This document shows positions 13,064 through 21,405 of a DNA stretch of 64,000 bases, piece by piece; position 1 is the stretch's first letter, and the number at the start of each line of letters is the position of its first letter. The notes under the pieces were generated by a model, which was given only the letters and a program-made list of their open reading frames with translations, did no database searches and was not told the origin of the DNA. Source of the DNA: Actinomarinicola tropica (GTDB lineage Bacteria > Actinomycetota > Acidimicrobiia > Acidimicrobiales > SKKL01); assembly GCF_009650215.1 (NCBI RefSeq), contig NZ_CP045851.1, positions 3,313,001 to 3,377,000 of the forward strand. The letters are read 5' to 3'. The position numbers and the translations under genes are program-made.

Positions 13064-14065
13064 TCAGTCGGCCAGGGCGCTGCAGCAGGTGTCGGTGATG
13101 AGACGGGTCACGACGTACGGGTCGCAGTTGGCGTTCGGCCGGCGATCCTCGATGTAGCCCTTCTTGTCGACCTCGACCTGCCACGGGATGCGCACCGACG
13201 CACCACGGTTGGACACGCCGTAGCTGAACTCGGTCCACGGAGCGGTCTCGTGGAGGCCGGTGAGGCGCTCCTCGATGCCGGCGCCGTAGTTCTTGATGTG
13301 GAGGTCGGCCTTGGCGGCGAGCGCCTCGCAGGCGGTGATGATCGGGTCGTAGCCCTCACGCATCGCCTTGGTCGAGAAGTTGGTGTGCGCACCCGCGCCG
13401 TTCCAGTCGCCGGCCACCGGCTTCGGGTCGAGCGTGGCGGCGATGTCGAACTCCTCACCGCAGCGGTAGAGCAGCCAGCGGGCCACCCAGATCTGGTCGG
13501 CGGCCTCGAGGGGACCGGCGGGGCCGATCTGGAACTCCCACTGGCCCATCATCACCTCGGCGTTGGTGCCGGAGATGGCGAGCCCGGCCTCCATGCACGC
13601 CTCGGTGTGCATCTCGACGACGTCGCGGCCCCAGATCTCGTCGGAGCCGACGCCGCAGTAGTACGGGCCCTGCGGGCCGGGGAAGCCGCCCTGGGGCCAG
13701 CCGAGCGGGCGGCCGTCCTTCAGGAACGTGTACTCCTGCTCGATGCCGAACCAGGGCTCCTGGTCCTTGAACTTCTCGGCGACCGCGGCGCACGCGGCGC
13801 GGGTGTTCGACGGGTGCGGCGTCATGTCGGGGAGGAGGACCTCGCACATGACGAGGACGTCGTCACCGCCCCGGATGGGGTCCGGGTACACGGCGACAGG
13901 GTTCAGGACGCAGTCGGAGTTGGCGCCCGGCGCCTGGTTGGTGCTCGAACCGTCGAAGCCCCAGACCGGCGGCTCGGCACCGTCGGCCACGACCTTGGTC
14001 TTCGACCGCAGCTTCGAGGTCGGCTCGGTGCCGTCGATCCAGATGTACTCAGCCCGGTAGCTCAC
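13064..14065 (-). CDS. glnII: Glutamine synthetase type II
   Basis: This eukaryote-type GSII has 333 residues, much shorter than GSI. It makes glutamine from glutamate, ammonia and ATP. Hallmarks are the start MSYRAEYIWIDGTEP, the segment PPVWGFDGSSTNQAPG, the metal-binding EQEYTFL, GTNAEVMMGQWEFQIGP and the ATP-site NGAGAHTNFSTKAMRE. GSII is found in some actinobacteria (for example Streptomyces and Frankia), where it is transcribed under nitrogen limitation and is not adenylylated. It lies head-to-head with a GSI gene across 190 bases, which presumably carry both promoters. Confidence 0.96.
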   Translation of the reverse strand: MSYRAEYIWIDGTEPTSKLRSKTKVVADGAEPPVWGFDGSSTNQAPGANSDCVLNPVAVYPDPIRGGDDVLVMCEVLLPDMTPHPSNTRAACAAVAEKFKDQEPWFGIEQEYTFLKDGRPLGWPQGGFPGPQGPYYCGVGSDEIWGRDVVEMHTEACMEAGLAISGTNAEVMMGQWEFQIGPAGPLEAADQIWVARWLLYRCGEEFDIAATLDPKPVAGDWNGAGAHTNFSTKAMREGYDPIITACEALAAKADLHIKNYGAGIEERLTGLHETAPWTEFSYGVSNRGASVRIPWQVEVDKKGYIEDRRPNANCDPYVVTRLITDTCCSALAD

Positions 14066-14256
14066 GCGTGTTCAGTCCTCTCGAGTGCCGCGCCCGGGTC
14101 TGTCCTCGGCGCGGAGGGGTGTGGGTGGGCCTCGGCCCGTGTCCTGGAGACGGTAACCGGGGGGCGATTTCTCGGCCGTTGCACATGTGTGAACGGAATG
14201 TGAACCGGCCGCCCGAGCGGGCTCGGTCGCCCGGGAGCCGTGCCAGGATGGCGCCC

Positions 14257-15594
14257 ATGGAACGTCAGCAGGACTACGTGCTGCGCACCGTCGAGGAGCG
14301 AGGGGTGCGTCTCGTGCGCCTCTGGTTCACCGACGTGCTCGGGCAGCTGAAGTCGTTCGCCATCTCCCCCGCCGAGCTCGAGACCGCCTTCGAGGAGGGC
14401 ATGCACTTCGACGGCTCGGCCATCGACGGGTTCTCCCGGGTGCAGGAGAGCGACGTGCTCGCCCGCCCCGACCCGAACAGCTTCGAGATCCTGCCGTGGG
14501 CCGACGACGACGGCACCTCGGCCCGGATGTTCTGCGACATCGACAACCTCGACGGCACCCCCTTCGAGGGCGATCCCCGTGGCGTGCTCCGCCGGGGGCT
14601 CGACCGGGCGCGTGAGGTCGGCGGGTACTCGTTCTTCGTCGCCCCCGAGATGGAGTTCTTCTACTTCGCCGACAACGACCCGAGCCGCCCGCCCGAGCCG
14701 CTCGACACCGGGTCGTACTTCGACCTCACCACCGCCGACGTCGCCGGCGACATGCGCAAGCGCACGATCGCGATGCTCGAGTCGATGGGCATCCCCGTCG
14801 AGTACTCGTTCCACGAGGACAGCCCGAGCCAGCACGAGATCGACCTGCGCTACACCGACGGCCTCTCGATGGCCGACAACGTGATGACGTTCCGGCTCGT
14901 GGTGCGGGAGATCGCCATGGAGCAGGGCGCCTACGCCACGTTCATGCCCAAGCCCCTCGCCGGTGTGCAGGGCTCGGGGATGCACACGCACATCTCGCTG
15001 TTCGAGGGCGACGAGAACGCCTTCCACGACCCCGACGACCCCTACAACCTGTCCGACACCGGGCGAGCGTTCATCGCCGGGCTGCTCCACCACGCGCCGG
15101 AGATCACCGCGGTCACCAACCAGCTGGTGAACTCCTACAAGCGGCTCATCGTCGGCTACGAGGCGCCCGTCTACGTCTCCTGGGCCCGCAACAACCGCTC
15201 GGCGCTCGTGCGGGTGCCGGTCACGAAGGCCGGCAAGGCGTCCTCCACTCGGATCGAGTACCGGGCCCCGGACCCGGCGTGCAACCCGTACCTCTCGTTC
15301 GCCGTCATCCTGGCGGCGGGCATGGCTGGCATCGAGAAGGGCTACGAGCTGCCCGACGAGTCGGCGGCCAACGTCTTCGAGATGAGCGACAAGGAGCGGG
15401 CCGCCGCCGGGCTGCGCCCCCTCCCCCAGTCGCTCGCCGAGGCGCTCGACGCCATGGAGGGCTCCGAGATGGTCGCCGAGGCGCTGGGGGACCACATCTT
15501 CGAGTGGTTCCTCCGCAACAAGCGGTCCGAGTGGGCGGACTACAAGGCCCACGTCTCCCAGTTCGAGCTCAGCCGCTACCTCCCGAACTGGTAG
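14257..15594 (+). CDS. glnA: Glutamine synthetase type I, short (alpha) form
   Basis: This GSI has 445 residues. The N-terminal beta-grasp domain contains VRLVRLWFTDVLGQLK, and HFDGSAIDGFSRVQESD follows. Active-site segments are APEMEFFYF, GSGMHTHISLF, NQLVNSYKRL and RIEYRAPDPACNPY. The adenylylation Tyr motif (NLYDLP) of GSI-beta is replaced by a region like that of Bacillus GlnA, so this is a GSI-alpha enzyme probably not controlled by adenylylation. The ATG at 14257 gives the usual start MERQQ; an in-frame ATG three codons upstream is possible. The GlnR-like gene follows after 6 bases. Confidence 0.94.
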   Translation: MERQQDYVLRTVEERGVRLVRLWFTDVLGQLKSFAISPAELETAFEEGMHFDGSAIDGFSRVQESDVLARPDPNSFEILPWADDDGTSARMFCDIDNLDGTPFEGDPRGVLRRGLDRAREVGGYSFFVAPEMEFFYFADNDPSRPPEPLDTGSYFDLTTADVAGDMRKRTIAMLESMGIPVEYSFHEDSPSQHEIDLRYTDGLSMADNVMTFRLVVREIAMEQGAYATFMPKPLAGVQGSGMHTHISLFEGDENAFHDPDDPYNLSDTGRAFIAGLLHHAPEITAVTNQLVNSYKRLIVGYEAPVYVSWARNNRSALVRVPVTKAGKASSTRIEYRAPDPACNPYLSFAVILAAGMAGIEKGYELPDESAANVFEMSDKERAAAGLRPLPQSLAEALDAMEGSEMVAEALGDHIFEWFLRNKRSEWADYKAHVSQFELSRYLPNW

Positions 15595-16979: not shown

Positions 16980-17330
16980 TCAGCTGCCGGTGTGGGCCCA
17001 GGCCTCGATCTCGACGAGGGCACCGATCGGGAGCTCGGCCACGCCGATGGCGGAGCGGGCCGGGCGGTGGTCCCCGAAGTACTCGAGGTACACCTCGTTC
17101 ATCAGCGCGTAGTCGCTCATGTGGCGCAGGAACACGGTGGTCTTGACCACCTGCTCCTTCGTGGCGCCCTCCGACGCCAGCAGGCCGTCGAGGTTCTGGA
17201 GCGCCTGGGCGAGCTGGCCGCCGGTGCCGCCGTCGGCGAGCTTGCCGTCCTTGATCCCCACCTGACCCGACACGATCAGCCACTCGCCCGCCCGGACGAT
17301 CGGCGTGTACGGGCCCACTGGCGTGCTCAT
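16980..17330 (-). CDS. RidA/YjgF family enamine-imine deaminase
   Basis: This protein (116 residues) has the RidA fold. It shows the start MSTPVGPYTPIVRAGEWLIV, the strand VSGQVGIKDGKL, the segment VVKTTVFLRHMSDYALMNEVY and the conserved Arg of RPARSAIGVAELP, which binds the substrate carboxylate in RidA. The usual role is hydrolysis of reactive 2-aminoacrylate intermediates released by PLP enzymes. GAGGAG upstream supports the ATG. It follows the xanthine-dehydrogenase-like gene on the same strand after 22 bases, so the two are probably co-transcribed and RidA may act in the same catabolic route. Confidence 0.9.
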   Translation of the reverse strand: MSTPVGPYTPIVRAGEWLIVSGQVGIKDGKLADGGTGGQLAQALQNLDGLLASEGATKEQVVKTTVFLRHMSDYALMNEVYLEYFGDHRPARSAIGVAELPIGALVEIEAWAHTGS

Positions 17331-17352: not shown

Positions 17353-18912
17353 TCACGGCTGCCGGACAGTCTGGCCCGTGGGCCACACCTCGGGACGACC
17401 CTGGGCGCACCACACCGCGCCGGCGACGGCGGCGAACACCGCGTCGGACCCGTTCACCGCCGGCCCGTCGGATGCCTCGATCTCGACCTCGATCGGGGGC
17501 GTGTCGACGGCGCGCAGCACGCCGAACGACCGGATCGTCAGGTCGTGGATCGTGCCCTCGCCATCGACGACCAGCCCCTCCGAGGTGACCCAGCTGAGCG
17601 CCATGTGGGCGGCGCCGACGCAGTAGGACCGGAGGACGACGTCGTCGAGCACCTGGCCGCAGCGGACCCGCACGGCCAGCCGACCGTCGACCACCTCGGC
17701 CGATGCCACGGCGCCGTCCGGTGTCGTCACCTCCACCGGCCCGTCGGCCAGGGCCGCCCGCAGCGCCCACGCCTCGGCCCACCCCGCCGCGCGGAGGTCG
17801 ACGGACGTCGCGGGGCCGGCCACATCCACCTCCTCGACCTCGACGTCGGGCAGCACGGCGCGGATCCGCTCCGCGATGCCCGGCGTGCGCACCACGCGCA
17901 CGACGCCGGACCCGTCGGCCCGCACGCCGGCGGCGATCGGCGGGCGCTTGGGCCCCAACCGAACGGCGTCCTCCCGGGAGAGGTGGACGACGACGGGACG
18001 CCCGTGCTCGTCGGCCAGCTGGCGGGCGGCCGCTCGCACGAGGGAGTCGACCTTGCCGCCGAACGCCCCGCCGTTCGCCAGCGGCGACGCGGGCTCGCCG
18101 CCCGGCTCGCACCACGACGCGTCGGTCTCCAGGTAGGCGGGCTCGACCCACGACGTGCGCAGGGTGACGGCCCACTCCCCCGGCGGCAGCTCGAGCGGCG
18201 GCTCGGGCGTGACCGTGGTGCGCCGCCCCTGCACCTTCCCGGAGGCGGCTCGCGCCTCGCTCAGCGTCTCGCCCACCGCCCAGCCACCCTCCGGACGTGG
18301 GACCGCGACGAGGGCGCCGGCGGGTGCCGTGTCGGCGGCGAAACCCCCCGCGCCCACTGCCACGTCGGGCGCCACCCGCTGGGGCCCGTGGCCCTCGATC
18401 TCCGCACGGCGGGCCGCGTCGTCGAGGTCGCGCTCGTGGCGCAGGACGTCGGCGGCGACCGAGGGGCGCCCGGTGGCGACGTCCCATGCGTCGAGGATCG
18501 TGCGCCACCCGGTGCAGCGGCACAGGTGCGCCTGGAGCGCCCGCTCGACCTCCGGGACGCCGGCGTCGGGCTTCGCCCGGTGCAACCCATCGAGGCGGAC
18601 GATGATCCCCGGCGTGCAGAAGCCGCACTGGCTCCCGCCGGTGGCGCAGAACGCCTCGCCCCACCGCTCCCTCCGCTCGGCGTCCATCCCGTCGAGCGTG
18701 GTGATGGTCCGGCCCGTCACGCGCCGTGCGGGAGTCACGCAGGCGACGCGTGGCTGGCCGTCGACGAGGACGGTGCAGCAGCCGCACTGGCCCTGCGGCG
18801 AGCACCCGTCCTTCGGGCTGTGGATCCCCAGCCGGTCGCGCAGCACCTCGAGCAGCGACGCCCCGTCGTCGGGGACCTCCACCTGGCGGCCGTCGACCTC
18901 GAACTGGATCAT
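17353..18912 (-). CDS. Condensed xanthine dehydrogenase-like fusion: 2Fe-2S subunit joined to a shortened molybdenum-subunit region
   Basis: Residues 1-155 are a complete small subunit of the xanthine dehydrogenase family. Cys37, Cys43, Cys46 and Cys58 fit the plant-type 2Fe-2S cluster, and Cys96, Cys99, Cys131 and Cys133 (CGFCTPG and CRCTGW) fit the second cluster. The remaining 360 residues resemble pieces of the large subunit: GEWAVTLRTSWVEPAYLE, then NGGAFGGK near 280, REDAVRLGPKRPP, and a C-terminal PPIEVEIEASDGPAVNGSDA. A normal large subunit is about 750 residues, so most of the molybdopterin domain is missing. No separate Mo or FAD subunit is near. It may be an electron-transfer or noncatalytic member of the family. 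Confidence 0.75.
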   Translation of the reverse strand: MIQFEVDGRQVEVPDDGASLLEVLRDRLGIHSPKDGCSPQGQCGCCTVLVDGQPRVACVTPARRVTGRTITTLDGMDAERRERWGEAFCATGGSQCGFCTPGIIVRLDGLHRAKPDAGVPEVERALQAHLCRCTGWRTILDAWDVATGRPSVAADVLRHERDLDDAARRAEIEGHGPQRVAPDVAVGAGGFAADTAPAGALVAVPRPEGGWAVGETLSEARAASGKVQGRRTTVTPEPPLELPPGEWAVTLRTSWVEPAYLETDASWCEPGGEPASPLANGGAFGGKVDSLVRAAARQLADEHGRPVVVHLSREDAVRLGPKRPPIAAGVRADGSGVVRVVRTPGIAERIRAVLPDVEVEEVDVAGPATSVDLRAAGWAEAWALRAALADGPVEVTTPDGAVASAEVVDGRLAVRVRCGQVLDDVVLRSYCVGAAHMALSWVTSEGLVVDGEGTIHDLTIRSFGVLRAVDTPPIEVEIEASDGPAVNGSDAVFAAVAGAVWCAQGRPEVWPTGQTVRQP

Positions 18913-18986: not shown

Positions 18987-19307
18987 TCAGCTGAAGGACT
19001 GGCCGCAGCCGCAGGTGCGCGACGCGTTCGGGTTGTTGATGGCGAACCCGGCGTCCTGGAGGCCGTCCTTGTAGTCGAGGGTGGCGCCGTTCAGGAGCTG
19101 GGCGCTGGACGGGTCGGAGACCACGCGGACACCGCCGAAGTCGACGGCGAGGTCGTCCTCGGCCACGTCGGTGTCGAAGAACATCTCGTAGCTGAAGCCC
19201 GAGCACCCGCCGGGGCGGACGGCGACGCGCAGCGCGAGGGCCGCGTCGCCTTCGGCGTCGATGAGCTGCTTGACCTTGTCGGCGGCGGAATCGGTGAGGG
19301 TGATCAA
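18987..19307 (-). CDS. Iron-sulfur cluster insertion protein (ErpA/IscA, HesB family)
   Basis: This A-type Fe-S carrier has 106 residues. It holds the three invariant Cys residues, one in RPGGCSGFSYEM and two in RTCGCGQSF. It delivers clusters to apoproteins in the cytoplasm. Translation probably begins at TTG (19307), because AGGAGG lies 9 bases before it and the result starts at the conserved ITLTDSAADKV; no ATG or GTG is suitably placed. The next genes upstream are a SufR-like Fe-S sensor and Mrp, so this is a small Fe-S homeostasis locus. Confidence 0.92.
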   Translation of the reverse strand: MITLTDSAADKVKQLIDAEGDAALALRVAVRPGGCSGFSYEMFFDTDVAEDDLAVDFGGVRVVSDPSSAQLLNGATLDYKDGLQDAGFAINNPNASRTCGCGQSFS

Positions 19308-20153: not shown

Positions 20154-20180
20154 AGTTTACACGGCGCTCTCCGGTAAAAT
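20154..20180. promoter_or_regulatory. Back-to-back leaderless promoters of the SufR-like and mrp genes
   Basis: The minus-strand -10 TAAACT (20159-20154) ends 8 bases before the regulator GTG, and the plus-strand -10 TAAAAT (20175-20180) ends 7 bases before the mrp GTG. TTTAC (20156-20160) and GTAAA (20174-20178) make a dyad with a 13-base spacer. The dyad follows from the two mirrored -10 boxes, but it would also let one regulator dimer cover both promoters. Confidence 0.6.
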
Positions 20181-20187
20181 CGGCCTC

Positions 20188-21405
20188 GTGCCTCCCACCA
20201 CCGGATCCGATGCGCCGCCGACGGTGGCGCCACCCACCCACGAGGACGTCGTCGGCGTCCTGCGCGGGGTCGTCGATCCGGAGCTCGGGTCCGACGTCGT
20301 CGACCTCGGCATGGCCAAGGACGTCGCCGTCGACGCCGACGGCACGGTGCGCGTGACCGTGGCGCTCACCACCGCCGGCTGCCCCCTCCGGGCCCAGCTC
20401 CAGCGCGACGTCCGCACCCGCGTCGGCTCGATGCCCGGCGTCACCGACGTCCGCATCGAGTGGACGGAGATGACCGCGGAGGAGAAGGCCACCGCGATGG
20501 ACCGGGCCCGCTGGAACGCCCGCGCCGACGCCCCCGACACGCTCATCCCCGCCACCACCCGCGTGGTGGCCGTCGCCTCCGGCAAGGGCGGGGTCGGCAA
20601 GTCGTCGGTCACCGTCAACCTCGCCGTGGCCGTCGCCGCCAGGGGCTACCGCGTCGGTGTCCTCGACGCCGACATCTGGGGCTTCTCCGTGCCCCGCATG
20701 CTCGGGCTCGAAGGACGCCTCGGCGGCGCCGGCGACGGGCCGACCCCCGAGGGCGAGCGCCCGAAGATCGCGCCGATCACCATGCCCGTCGGCGACGGGC
20801 AGCTCGAGGTCGTGTCGATGGGGTTCCTCGTCGACGCCGAGGAGACCGCCCTCATGTGGCGGGGGCTCATGCTCAACCGCGCCGTCCAGCACTTCGTCGA
20901 GGACGTCGCCTGGGGCGACCTCGACTACCTCTTCATCGACATGCCGCCGGGCACCGGCGACGTCGCCATGGGCCTCGCCCGGATGCTGCCGCGTGCCGAG
21001 ATGCTGGTGGTCACCACGCCCGCGCTCACAGCGCAGAAGGTCGCCATCCGCGCCGCCTCGATGGCCCGGCGCAGCCACCTGCGGGTCGCCGGCGTGATCG
21101 AGAACATGAGCGCGTTCGTCTGCGACCACGGCGAGAGCTACCCGCTGTTCGGGTCCGGCGGCGGCGAGCTGCTCGCCCGTGACGCCGGCGTGCCGCTGCT
21201 CGGCCAGATCCCGCTCGAGCCGTCCGTCGCCGACGGTGGCGACAACGGGCGACCGATCGCGCTCGGTGAGGGCCCCGCCGCCGACGCGTTCCGCGACCTG
21301 GCCGCCCAGGTCGTCGAGGAGGCGATCCCTCCGGTCGAGATGGCCGGCTGCAGCGCCCGCATGCTCGACGCCGCCGTCTCGGCGCTCGACGACCTCGACC
21401 TCTAG
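20188..21405 (+). CDS. mrp: Mrp/NBP35-type Fe-S cluster carrier ATPase
   Basis: The 405-residue protein has an N-terminal MIP18/SufT-like domain (about residues 17-95: VLRGVVDPELGSDVVDLGM, then TTAGCPLRAQL). It is followed by a P-loop ATPase with the deviant Walker A ASGKGGVGKSSVTVNLA, then DADIWGFSVPRM and DYLFIDMPPGTGD. ApbC/Mrp proteins bind and hand over Fe-S clusters. The CxxC motif of many Mrp proteins is reduced to a single Cys (VCDHGESYPLFG), as in various actinobacterial relatives. The start is GTG with a leaderless promoter. It is divergent from the SufR-like gene and upstream of the riboswitch. Confidence 0.93.
   Translation: MPPTTGSDAPPTVAPPTHEDVVGVLRGVVDPELGSDVVDLGMAKDVAVDADGTVRVTVALTTAGCPLRAQLQRDVRTRVGSMPGVTDVRIEWTEMTAEEKATAMDRARWNARADAPDTLIPATTRVVAVASGKGGVGKSSVTVNLAVAVAARGYRVGVLDADIWGFSVPRMLGLEGRLGGAGDGPTPEGERPKIAPITMPVGDGQLEVVSMGFLVDAEETALMWRGLMLNRAVQHFVEDVAWGDLDYLFIDMPPGTGDVAMGLARMLPRAEMLVVTTPALTAQKVAIRAASMARRSHLRVAGVIENMSAFVCDHGESYPLFGSGGGELLARDAGVPLLGQIPLEPSVADGGDNGRPIALGEGPAADAFRDLAAQVVEEAIPPVEMAGCSARMLDAAVSALDDLDL

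Follow-up and report, generated by a model that had tools for sequence, protein, structure and literature searches.

The window, that is, the whole stretch of 64,000 nucleotides analyzed here (C1:3313001-3377000 of a single-contig genome of 3.72 Mb), contains on its minus strand an open reading frame that runs from 18912 to 17353, comprises 519 codons from an ATG plus the stop codon and fills positions 17353-18912. It encodes a miniature xanthine-dehydrogenase-like protein of 519 aa. Its N-terminus corresponds to a plant-type [2Fe-2S] domain (18688..18912, minus strand; Cys37, Cys43, Cys46 and Cys58), which is followed by Fer2_2, the second [2Fe-2S] domain (18487..18699, minus strand; Cys96, Cys99, Cys131 and Cys133). 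Above the Pfam cut-off, the protein matches Fer2_2 with 62.2 bits (residues 72-142) and Fer2 with 23.2 bits. The ORF, both Pfam domains and the eight cysteines bear out the first-pass annotation of this DNA, which had described a single chain of 519 residues with two complete 2Fe-2S domains.

In a set of 100 family members (the window protein, 59 loci and 40 genome stretches, giving 98 distinct sequences), the eight cluster cysteines are complete in 98, the other two members being truncated or gapped at the N-terminus. The motif of the first cluster, GCSPQGQCGCC (18775-18807), has one extra residue and an extra cysteine (Cys45) when compared with the usual form; the CGCC form is also present in 14 of the 20 full-size relatives that we used as parents. 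The extra cysteine is replaced by Ala in two members from family f5.

Matches of the remainder of the protein to molybdenum-domain profiles stay below the threshold: MoCoBD_1 scores 24.2 bits (Pfam cut-off 27; profile positions 94-144 of 244) and MoCoBD_2 14.7 bits (cut-off 27; positions 228-283 of 283). Ald_Xan_dh_C was not matched in the Pfam search of the miniature protein, nor did that search reveal any cofactor motif other than the two [2Fe-2S] clusters. The host genome carries a MoaC gene and, outside the window, three full MoCoBD_1 genes (C1:1359391, 3257478 and 3552171). As no such gene adjoins the miniature gene, a missing molybdenum subunit encoded next door was rejected, in agreement with the earlier statement that no Mo-hydroxylase subunit gene is adjacent.

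Downstream, and 23 nt past the stop codon of the miniature gene, starts a RidA-family gene of 116 aa (16980..17330, minus strand), the product of which scores 103.1 bits against TIGR00004 (cut-off 106.25; residues 4-112 of 116 matched). An ErpA/IscA-type iron-sulfur carrier gene (18987..19304, minus strand; NF010147, 129.2 bits, cut-off 117) ends about 77 nt upstream. Divergent from these genes lies one which, from its translation, we take to encode an Mrp/ApbC-type ATPase (20176..21405, plus strand). This neighbourhood is conserved. Among the 99 loci used for synteny counts (L039 was left out), 87 have ErpA upstream in the same orientation, 81 have Mrp in the opposite orientation, and 81 have RidA. 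The assignment of RidA to the same operon is consistent with a strong linkage: at 77 of the 99 loci it lies downstream within 200 nt and on the same strand, with a 4-nt overlap at 10. At 18 of the 99 loci RidA was not found beside the miniature gene, and in G031, a relative that lacks the miniature gene, RidA is still present at the corresponding position, near the IscA end; RidA is therefore not strictly tied to the miniature gene.

Distribution and relation to full-size enzymes

The distribution of the short form, which the first-pass annotation had proposed to check, was determined by one scan of a bacterial and archaeal genome collection (genome_contigs) and by surveys of genome samples. 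The scan gave 65 loci encoding relatives. Their record titles are nearly all Acidimicrobiia, Acidimicrobiales or Actinomycetota, and the few odd titles (e.g., Bifidobacterium, Patescibacteria) look like mislabelled MAGs. Of 198 genomes drawn evenly from this class of soil and water bacteria, 66 show a match at E <= 1e-60, as a single copy in each; three of these matches (G060, G076 and G185) span much less than the whole profile. When 396 genomes of the phylum were sampled, 42 reached E <= 1e-45, and the 18 full-length matches among them all fall within the same class. Matches in the other phylum genomes are confined to the N-terminal 150-240 positions, mostly in frames of 820-1,230 aa. A literature search, which covered papers other than subscription papers, found no description of the short form.

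Protein length ranges from 494 to 588 aa in the 100-member set, for which loci were fetched from 40 of the 66 holder genomes. A frameshift joining to missing sequence, which the first-pass annotation had named as the result that would overturn its reading, is excluded by this conserved short length, and so are a sequencing error or a local deletion. As to its other suggestion, that homologues might show an ordinary large subunit interrupted by a deletion, full-size relatives do exist, but as separate paralogues, and some genomes carry both forms side by side (G002, G027, G071, G075 and G110). A search of the host genome with the miniature protein yielded only two further Fe-S matches, whose open reading frames encode 183 and 420 aa, and no full-size single-chain paralogue was found. 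Both halves of the miniature protein are under purifying selection: over the 14 closest non-overlapping pairs (72-97% identity), dN/dS ranged from 0.05 to 0.25 in the C-terminal part and from 0 to 0.19 in the Fe-S part.

The first alignment included the window protein and 59 loci, six fragmentary loci of the 65 having been removed; alignment A1 included the window protein and 52 of the 65 loci, with fragments and near-identical loci omitted. The nearest full-size relatives are single-chain xanthine dehydrogenases of 850-880 aa from Actinomycetota, of the TIGR03311 type (selenium-dependent xanthine dehydrogenase). Four tested parents score 791, 812, 792 and 1012 bits against TIGR03311 (cut-off 830.45), whereas the miniature protein, which is about 330 residues shorter, scores 147.5 bits, below that cut-off and with its best stretch at residues 3-195. 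Both forms share the domain order in one chain and, in most cases, a motif of the GCxPxGQCGCC type. The alignment of the miniature form with 20 parents is collinear, with NGGAFGGK, KRxPI, the Arg of the FRGFG loop, xxxHM and LRS/TIRS following each other in both. When compared with parent L141, about 335 columns of the alignment are missing, in several blocks. The Ald_Xan_dh_C region has lost stretches of 28 and 31 residues, and two more, of 21 and 11, are missing behind it; a lost block of 30 (including the equivalent of Gln767) precedes NGGAFGGK, and 17 residues are absent from MoCoBD_1. The largest losses, of 80, 37 and 58 residues, fall in the first half of MoCoBD_2, and there are small gaps besides. 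Column statistics, for which 14 of the 100 members were used, show that 36 of the 45 parent-invariant columns are retained in the Fe-S part; in the Mo part 33 of 233 are retained, 91 being deleted and 109 changed.

A tree was built with 39 of the 100 members, the same number as used for the active-site motif counts, and the 20 parents. All 39 members fall in one clade with a long stem (1.42 substitutions per site); the support printed for this clade is 80, a value that may be shifted by re-rooting, and the intended outgroup is not a single clade. As part of a reading to which we give roughly even chances, the subfamily would have arisen once, by internal shrinkage of a TIGR03311-type single-chain xanthine dehydrogenase, and would since have been stable and vertically inherited.

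The reduced molybdenum domain

Alignment of the C-terminal part with large subunits of the three-subunit type by hhalign was too weak for residue mapping, which was made possible by aligning the single-chain parents: these were aligned to solved structures, and the miniature form was then aligned to the parents. Active-site residues listed for xanthine oxidase in PMC3909206 are Gln767, Glu802, Arg880, Phe914 and Glu1261. All five are present in the 20 parents. Among the 39 aligned miniature members only one of the five is retained, namely Arg880, the equivalent of which (Arg323, in REDAVRLGPKRPP; 17938..17976, minus strand, residues 313-325) is kept in all 39. The equivalent of Gln767 is deleted and the position of Glu802 is variable. 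Arg374, in GPATSVDLRAAGWAEA (17770..17817, minus strand, residues 366-381), corresponds to Arg912 of the AFRGFG loop; in the same stretch, the position of Phe914 is mostly occupied by Ala, Phe being found in four members. In the parent alignment, GPATSxxxR corresponds to the FRGFG loop and not to the GTxxSR segment.

The column of Glu1261 aligns with a gap in the miniature form. Nearby is Asp490, in the segment GSDAV (17437..17451, minus strand, residues 488-492), which lies where parents have GVGE with the catalytic Glu1261, the equivalence being uncertain. Residue 490 is acidic in 94 of the 100 members and non-acidic in the four f5 members as well as in L102 and L113; judged from the alignment, Asp490 could be a stand-in for the catalytic Glu.

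The largest losses are sited at residues 391-408 (17689..17742, minus strand), where the first half of MoCoBD_2 is gone, and with it EMGQG and TTGSRG: of the 39 members in the alignment, none has EMGQG and none keeps the TTGSRG Arg. We take these two segments to be pterin and phosphate contacts. The position of Gln1194 is occupied by Tyr430 (Tyr in 96/100), within the segment LRSYCVGAAHM, which also contains His436 (17602..17634, minus strand, residues 427-437).

Other residues of the Mo part have been preserved. Phe284, in NGGAFGGK (18052..18075, minus strand, residues 280-287), is kept in all 100 members and Arg374 in 99; their equivalents in KdhL, Phe269 and Arg383, are reported to stabilise the cofactor (PMC8305194). 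Glu262, Asp264, Arg313, Glu314, Arg323, His436, Glu445, Arg461 and Ser462 are invariant in the 100 members. As far as conservation can tell, this pattern would resemble a ligand or partner site more than filler.

An AlphaFold2 model built from 53 aligned sequences (pLDDT 92.5, pTM 0.93) was overlaid on known structures with VIA-align, as the first-pass annotation had recommended. Of its 519 residues, 483 superpose on rat xanthine oxidoreductase (4yrw_B; Z 24.2, 2.8 A, 24% identity). The superposed ranges of the predicted model span from the first Fe-S domain through the C-terminus, hence the Mo domain appears to be shrunk throughout and not cut off, and the miniature protein is, according to the model, a whole xanthine-oxidase-family fold at reduced scale. 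The C-terminal part is therefore about half the normal size, as first described; it does not consist of scattered motifs, but, by the parent alignment and the predicted fold, of a collinear, compacted whole Mo domain. Sequence and prediction together establish that both [2Fe-2S] sites are intact, that the Mo module has about half its size with the overall fold, and that it has lost most catalytic residues together with the pterin-side half of MoCoBD_2. There is good evidence that the ordinary Mo function has been lost.

The Desulfovibrio aldehyde oxidoreductase (MOP; 1sij, 1dgj) resembles the miniature protein in being a single chain with two [2Fe-2S] domains and a Mo part and without a FAD domain; the model superposes on these structures over 479 (1sij, from Desulfovibrio gigas; Z 23.5, 3.0 A) and 481 residues (1dgj; Z 23.3), at 3.0-3.1 A. 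In contrast to the miniature protein, it has 907 residues and complete Moco-binding segments. Mammalian xanthine oxidoreductase (4yrw and others) shares homology in the Fe-S domains and the superposed fold, but has a FAD domain, a full Mo domain and all five active-site residues named above. The N-terminal 150 residues of the miniature protein are 34-37% identical to the small [2Fe-2S] subunits of Mo hydroxylases (1rm6_C, 3hrd_D; Z about 21-22), which, in contrast, have no Mo-type domain and serve as a subunit of a full enzyme.

Cofactor genes and candidate functions

Mo hydroxylases are defined by their cofactor. The first-pass annotation had asked whether Moco genes always co-occur with the miniature gene, and the answer is negative: MoaC is present in 61 of the 66 holder genomes, and two of the five without it (G106 and G118) belong to family f5, in which MoaA and MoeA were not found. 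In the other three its absence looks like an assembly gap: G111 carries MoeA and ten MoCoBD_1 matches, while G028 and G194 (the latter 64% complete) carry conventional MoCoBD_1 genes, with no MoeA match. G106 and G118 are from one genus and are 96-97% complete. MoaA was found in none of the 12 f5 genomes searched, and MoeA and MoCoBD_1 in none of eight. Four f5 genomes (G055, G102, G106 and G118, all 96-97% complete) carry the miniature gene, complete and with no stops, followed by RidA. As neither MoaA nor MoeA was found in these four, the f5 protein should, on the basis of gene content, work without molybdenum cofactor. G055 and G102 show an orphan MoaC-like match, although MoaA and MoeA were not found.

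For the members outside f5, working without molybdenum would be an extension from f5, which the loss of the pterin segments supports. Outside f5, residue 490 is acidic except in L102 and L113, whereas in f5 it is not, so that the non-f5 proteins could retain a cofactor-related function; together with the kept Phe284 and Arg374, this is the pattern expected if the other members still used the cofactor. MoaC in 61 of the 66 holders and the MoaC matches of G055 and G102 likewise weigh against a cofactor-free reading.

The explanation that we prefer, at about even confidence, is that the subfamily is stable and descends from a purine-type molybdenum enzyme, of the TIGR03311 type, that shrank once, and that it is now a cofactor-free two-cluster redox relay or sensor coupled to RidA, not a hydroxylase. 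A relay or sensor is preferred over an oxidase because no cofactor for a two-electron oxidation is evident. The miniature protein has probably turned to a new job. Put in other terms, and a shade less confidently, one lineage within the xanthine oxidase family would have shed Moco and kept, under selection, the miniaturised Mo fold and both clusters, giving a Moco-independent redox protein that forms a unit with RidA acting on a reactive nitrogen metabolite. Gene content would directly speak against Mo chemistry in f5. Less certainly, what was the Mo pocket, now remodelled and with invariant Arg, His and Glu and near-invariant Tyr residues, may bind a ligand or a partner, the two clusters may pass or sense single electrons, and the miniature protein and RidA may be one functional unit in which RidA handles imine or enamine intermediates. 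If true, the Mo hydroxylases would have a pseudoenzyme branch that is maintained in bacteria lacking Moco synthesis. A conserved branch apparently living without Moco would offer a natural test of the Mo-domain fold and the Fe-S pair alone; the frequent RidA neighbour provides a handle on function, and an annotation of miniature genes as xanthine dehydrogenase should be avoided.

The proposal made at first, of a minimal enzyme, an electron carrier or a scaffold, divides accordingly: deleted pterin segments, the retention of one active-site residue out of five and the f5 genomes disfavour a minimal Mo enzyme, and a carrier and a scaffold both fit the sequence. A non-catalytic scaffold or regulator, in which a protein-binding surface (e.g., for RidA or full-size xanthine dehydrogenase) would be the purpose and the clusters would be structural, has a minor but real chance. 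The loss of catalytic residues in a strongly conserved domain and the coexistence of a full-size paralogue in some genomes fit such a role. The conservation of all eight cluster cysteines in 98 of 100 members points instead to a redox role, and a regulator of the full-size enzyme would often be without its target, as none was found in the host genome or, by the MoCoBD_1 search, in the f5 genomes tested.

Unlikely, in our estimate, is a new enzyme, whose remodelled pocket would hold another small cofactor or metal and oxidise an amine or N-heterocycle, RidA then hydrolysing the imine product. The adjacency of RidA is consistent with it, as are the invariant His and charged residues, which align in order with the former active-site segments. 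So are three loci of family f2: downstream of RidA, L087 and L089 carry a PLP decarboxylase, and L087 and L088 an 8-oxoguanine deaminase. Two-electron oxidation would nevertheless need a cofactor, and Pfam gave no known motif for one beyond the two clusters.

It is improbable that the protein is a minimal genuine Mo hydroxylase, with molybdopterin or a derivative bound in the truncated pocket and Asp490 replacing the catalytic Glu, the Moco-less family f5 being the only lineage excepted. The (near-)invariance of Phe284, Arg323 and Arg374, the acidic residue 490 in 94 of 100 members with its absence from the four f5 proteins, and MoaC in 61 of 66 holders speak for it. EMGQG and the Arg of TTGSRG are, on the other hand, lost in 39 of 39 members, Gln767 is deleted, Gln1194 is mostly Tyr and Glu802 is not conserved; moreover, the gene is intact in four f5 genomes. 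Phe284, Arg323 and His436 are kept in the f5 members too, so their conservation is no proof of cofactor binding. That the gene is a relic, a pseudogene-like paralogue in decay that happens to have survived next to RidA, is hardly credible: the low retention of parent-invariant Mo-part columns (33/233) would suit it, against purifying selection, near-constant length, invariant residues across deep clades, wide distribution and a confident, compact predicted fold.

Further genes of the neighbourhood

The miniature form adjoins ErpA and RidA, unlike its TIGR03311 parents, the neighbours of which (single tested loci) are PALP, Peptidase_M20, OTCace, amidohydrolase, carbon-nitrogen hydrolase and luciferase-like genes. 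Several of these families are listed for reductive uric acid clusters (PMC12507026).

In the genome that keeps RidA without the miniature gene (G031, locus L177), RidA is clustered with a response regulator, an amidohydrolase, two glutamine synthetases and a full-size TIGR03311-type xanthine dehydrogenase. In G002 (L163), a response regulator and two glutamine synthetase genes likewise share one neighbourhood with a full-size xanthine dehydrogenase of the TIGR03311 type, and an 8-oxoguanine deaminase lies near the miniature gene.

A divergent protein of about 280-320 aa is often encoded immediately upstream of the miniature gene, for example at L092:8985-9932 and L110:6265-7110. It matches no Pfam or NCBIfam family; a kinase identity was dropped, and the protein is described by its Tat- or lipoprotein-like start and a CQxxxCGPVLD motif. 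A type I glutamine synthetase gene lies near the miniature gene at 80 of the 99 loci, and in the window it and a different gene, both of which, from their sequence, we take to encode glutamine synthetases, adjoin on opposite strands (13064-15594).
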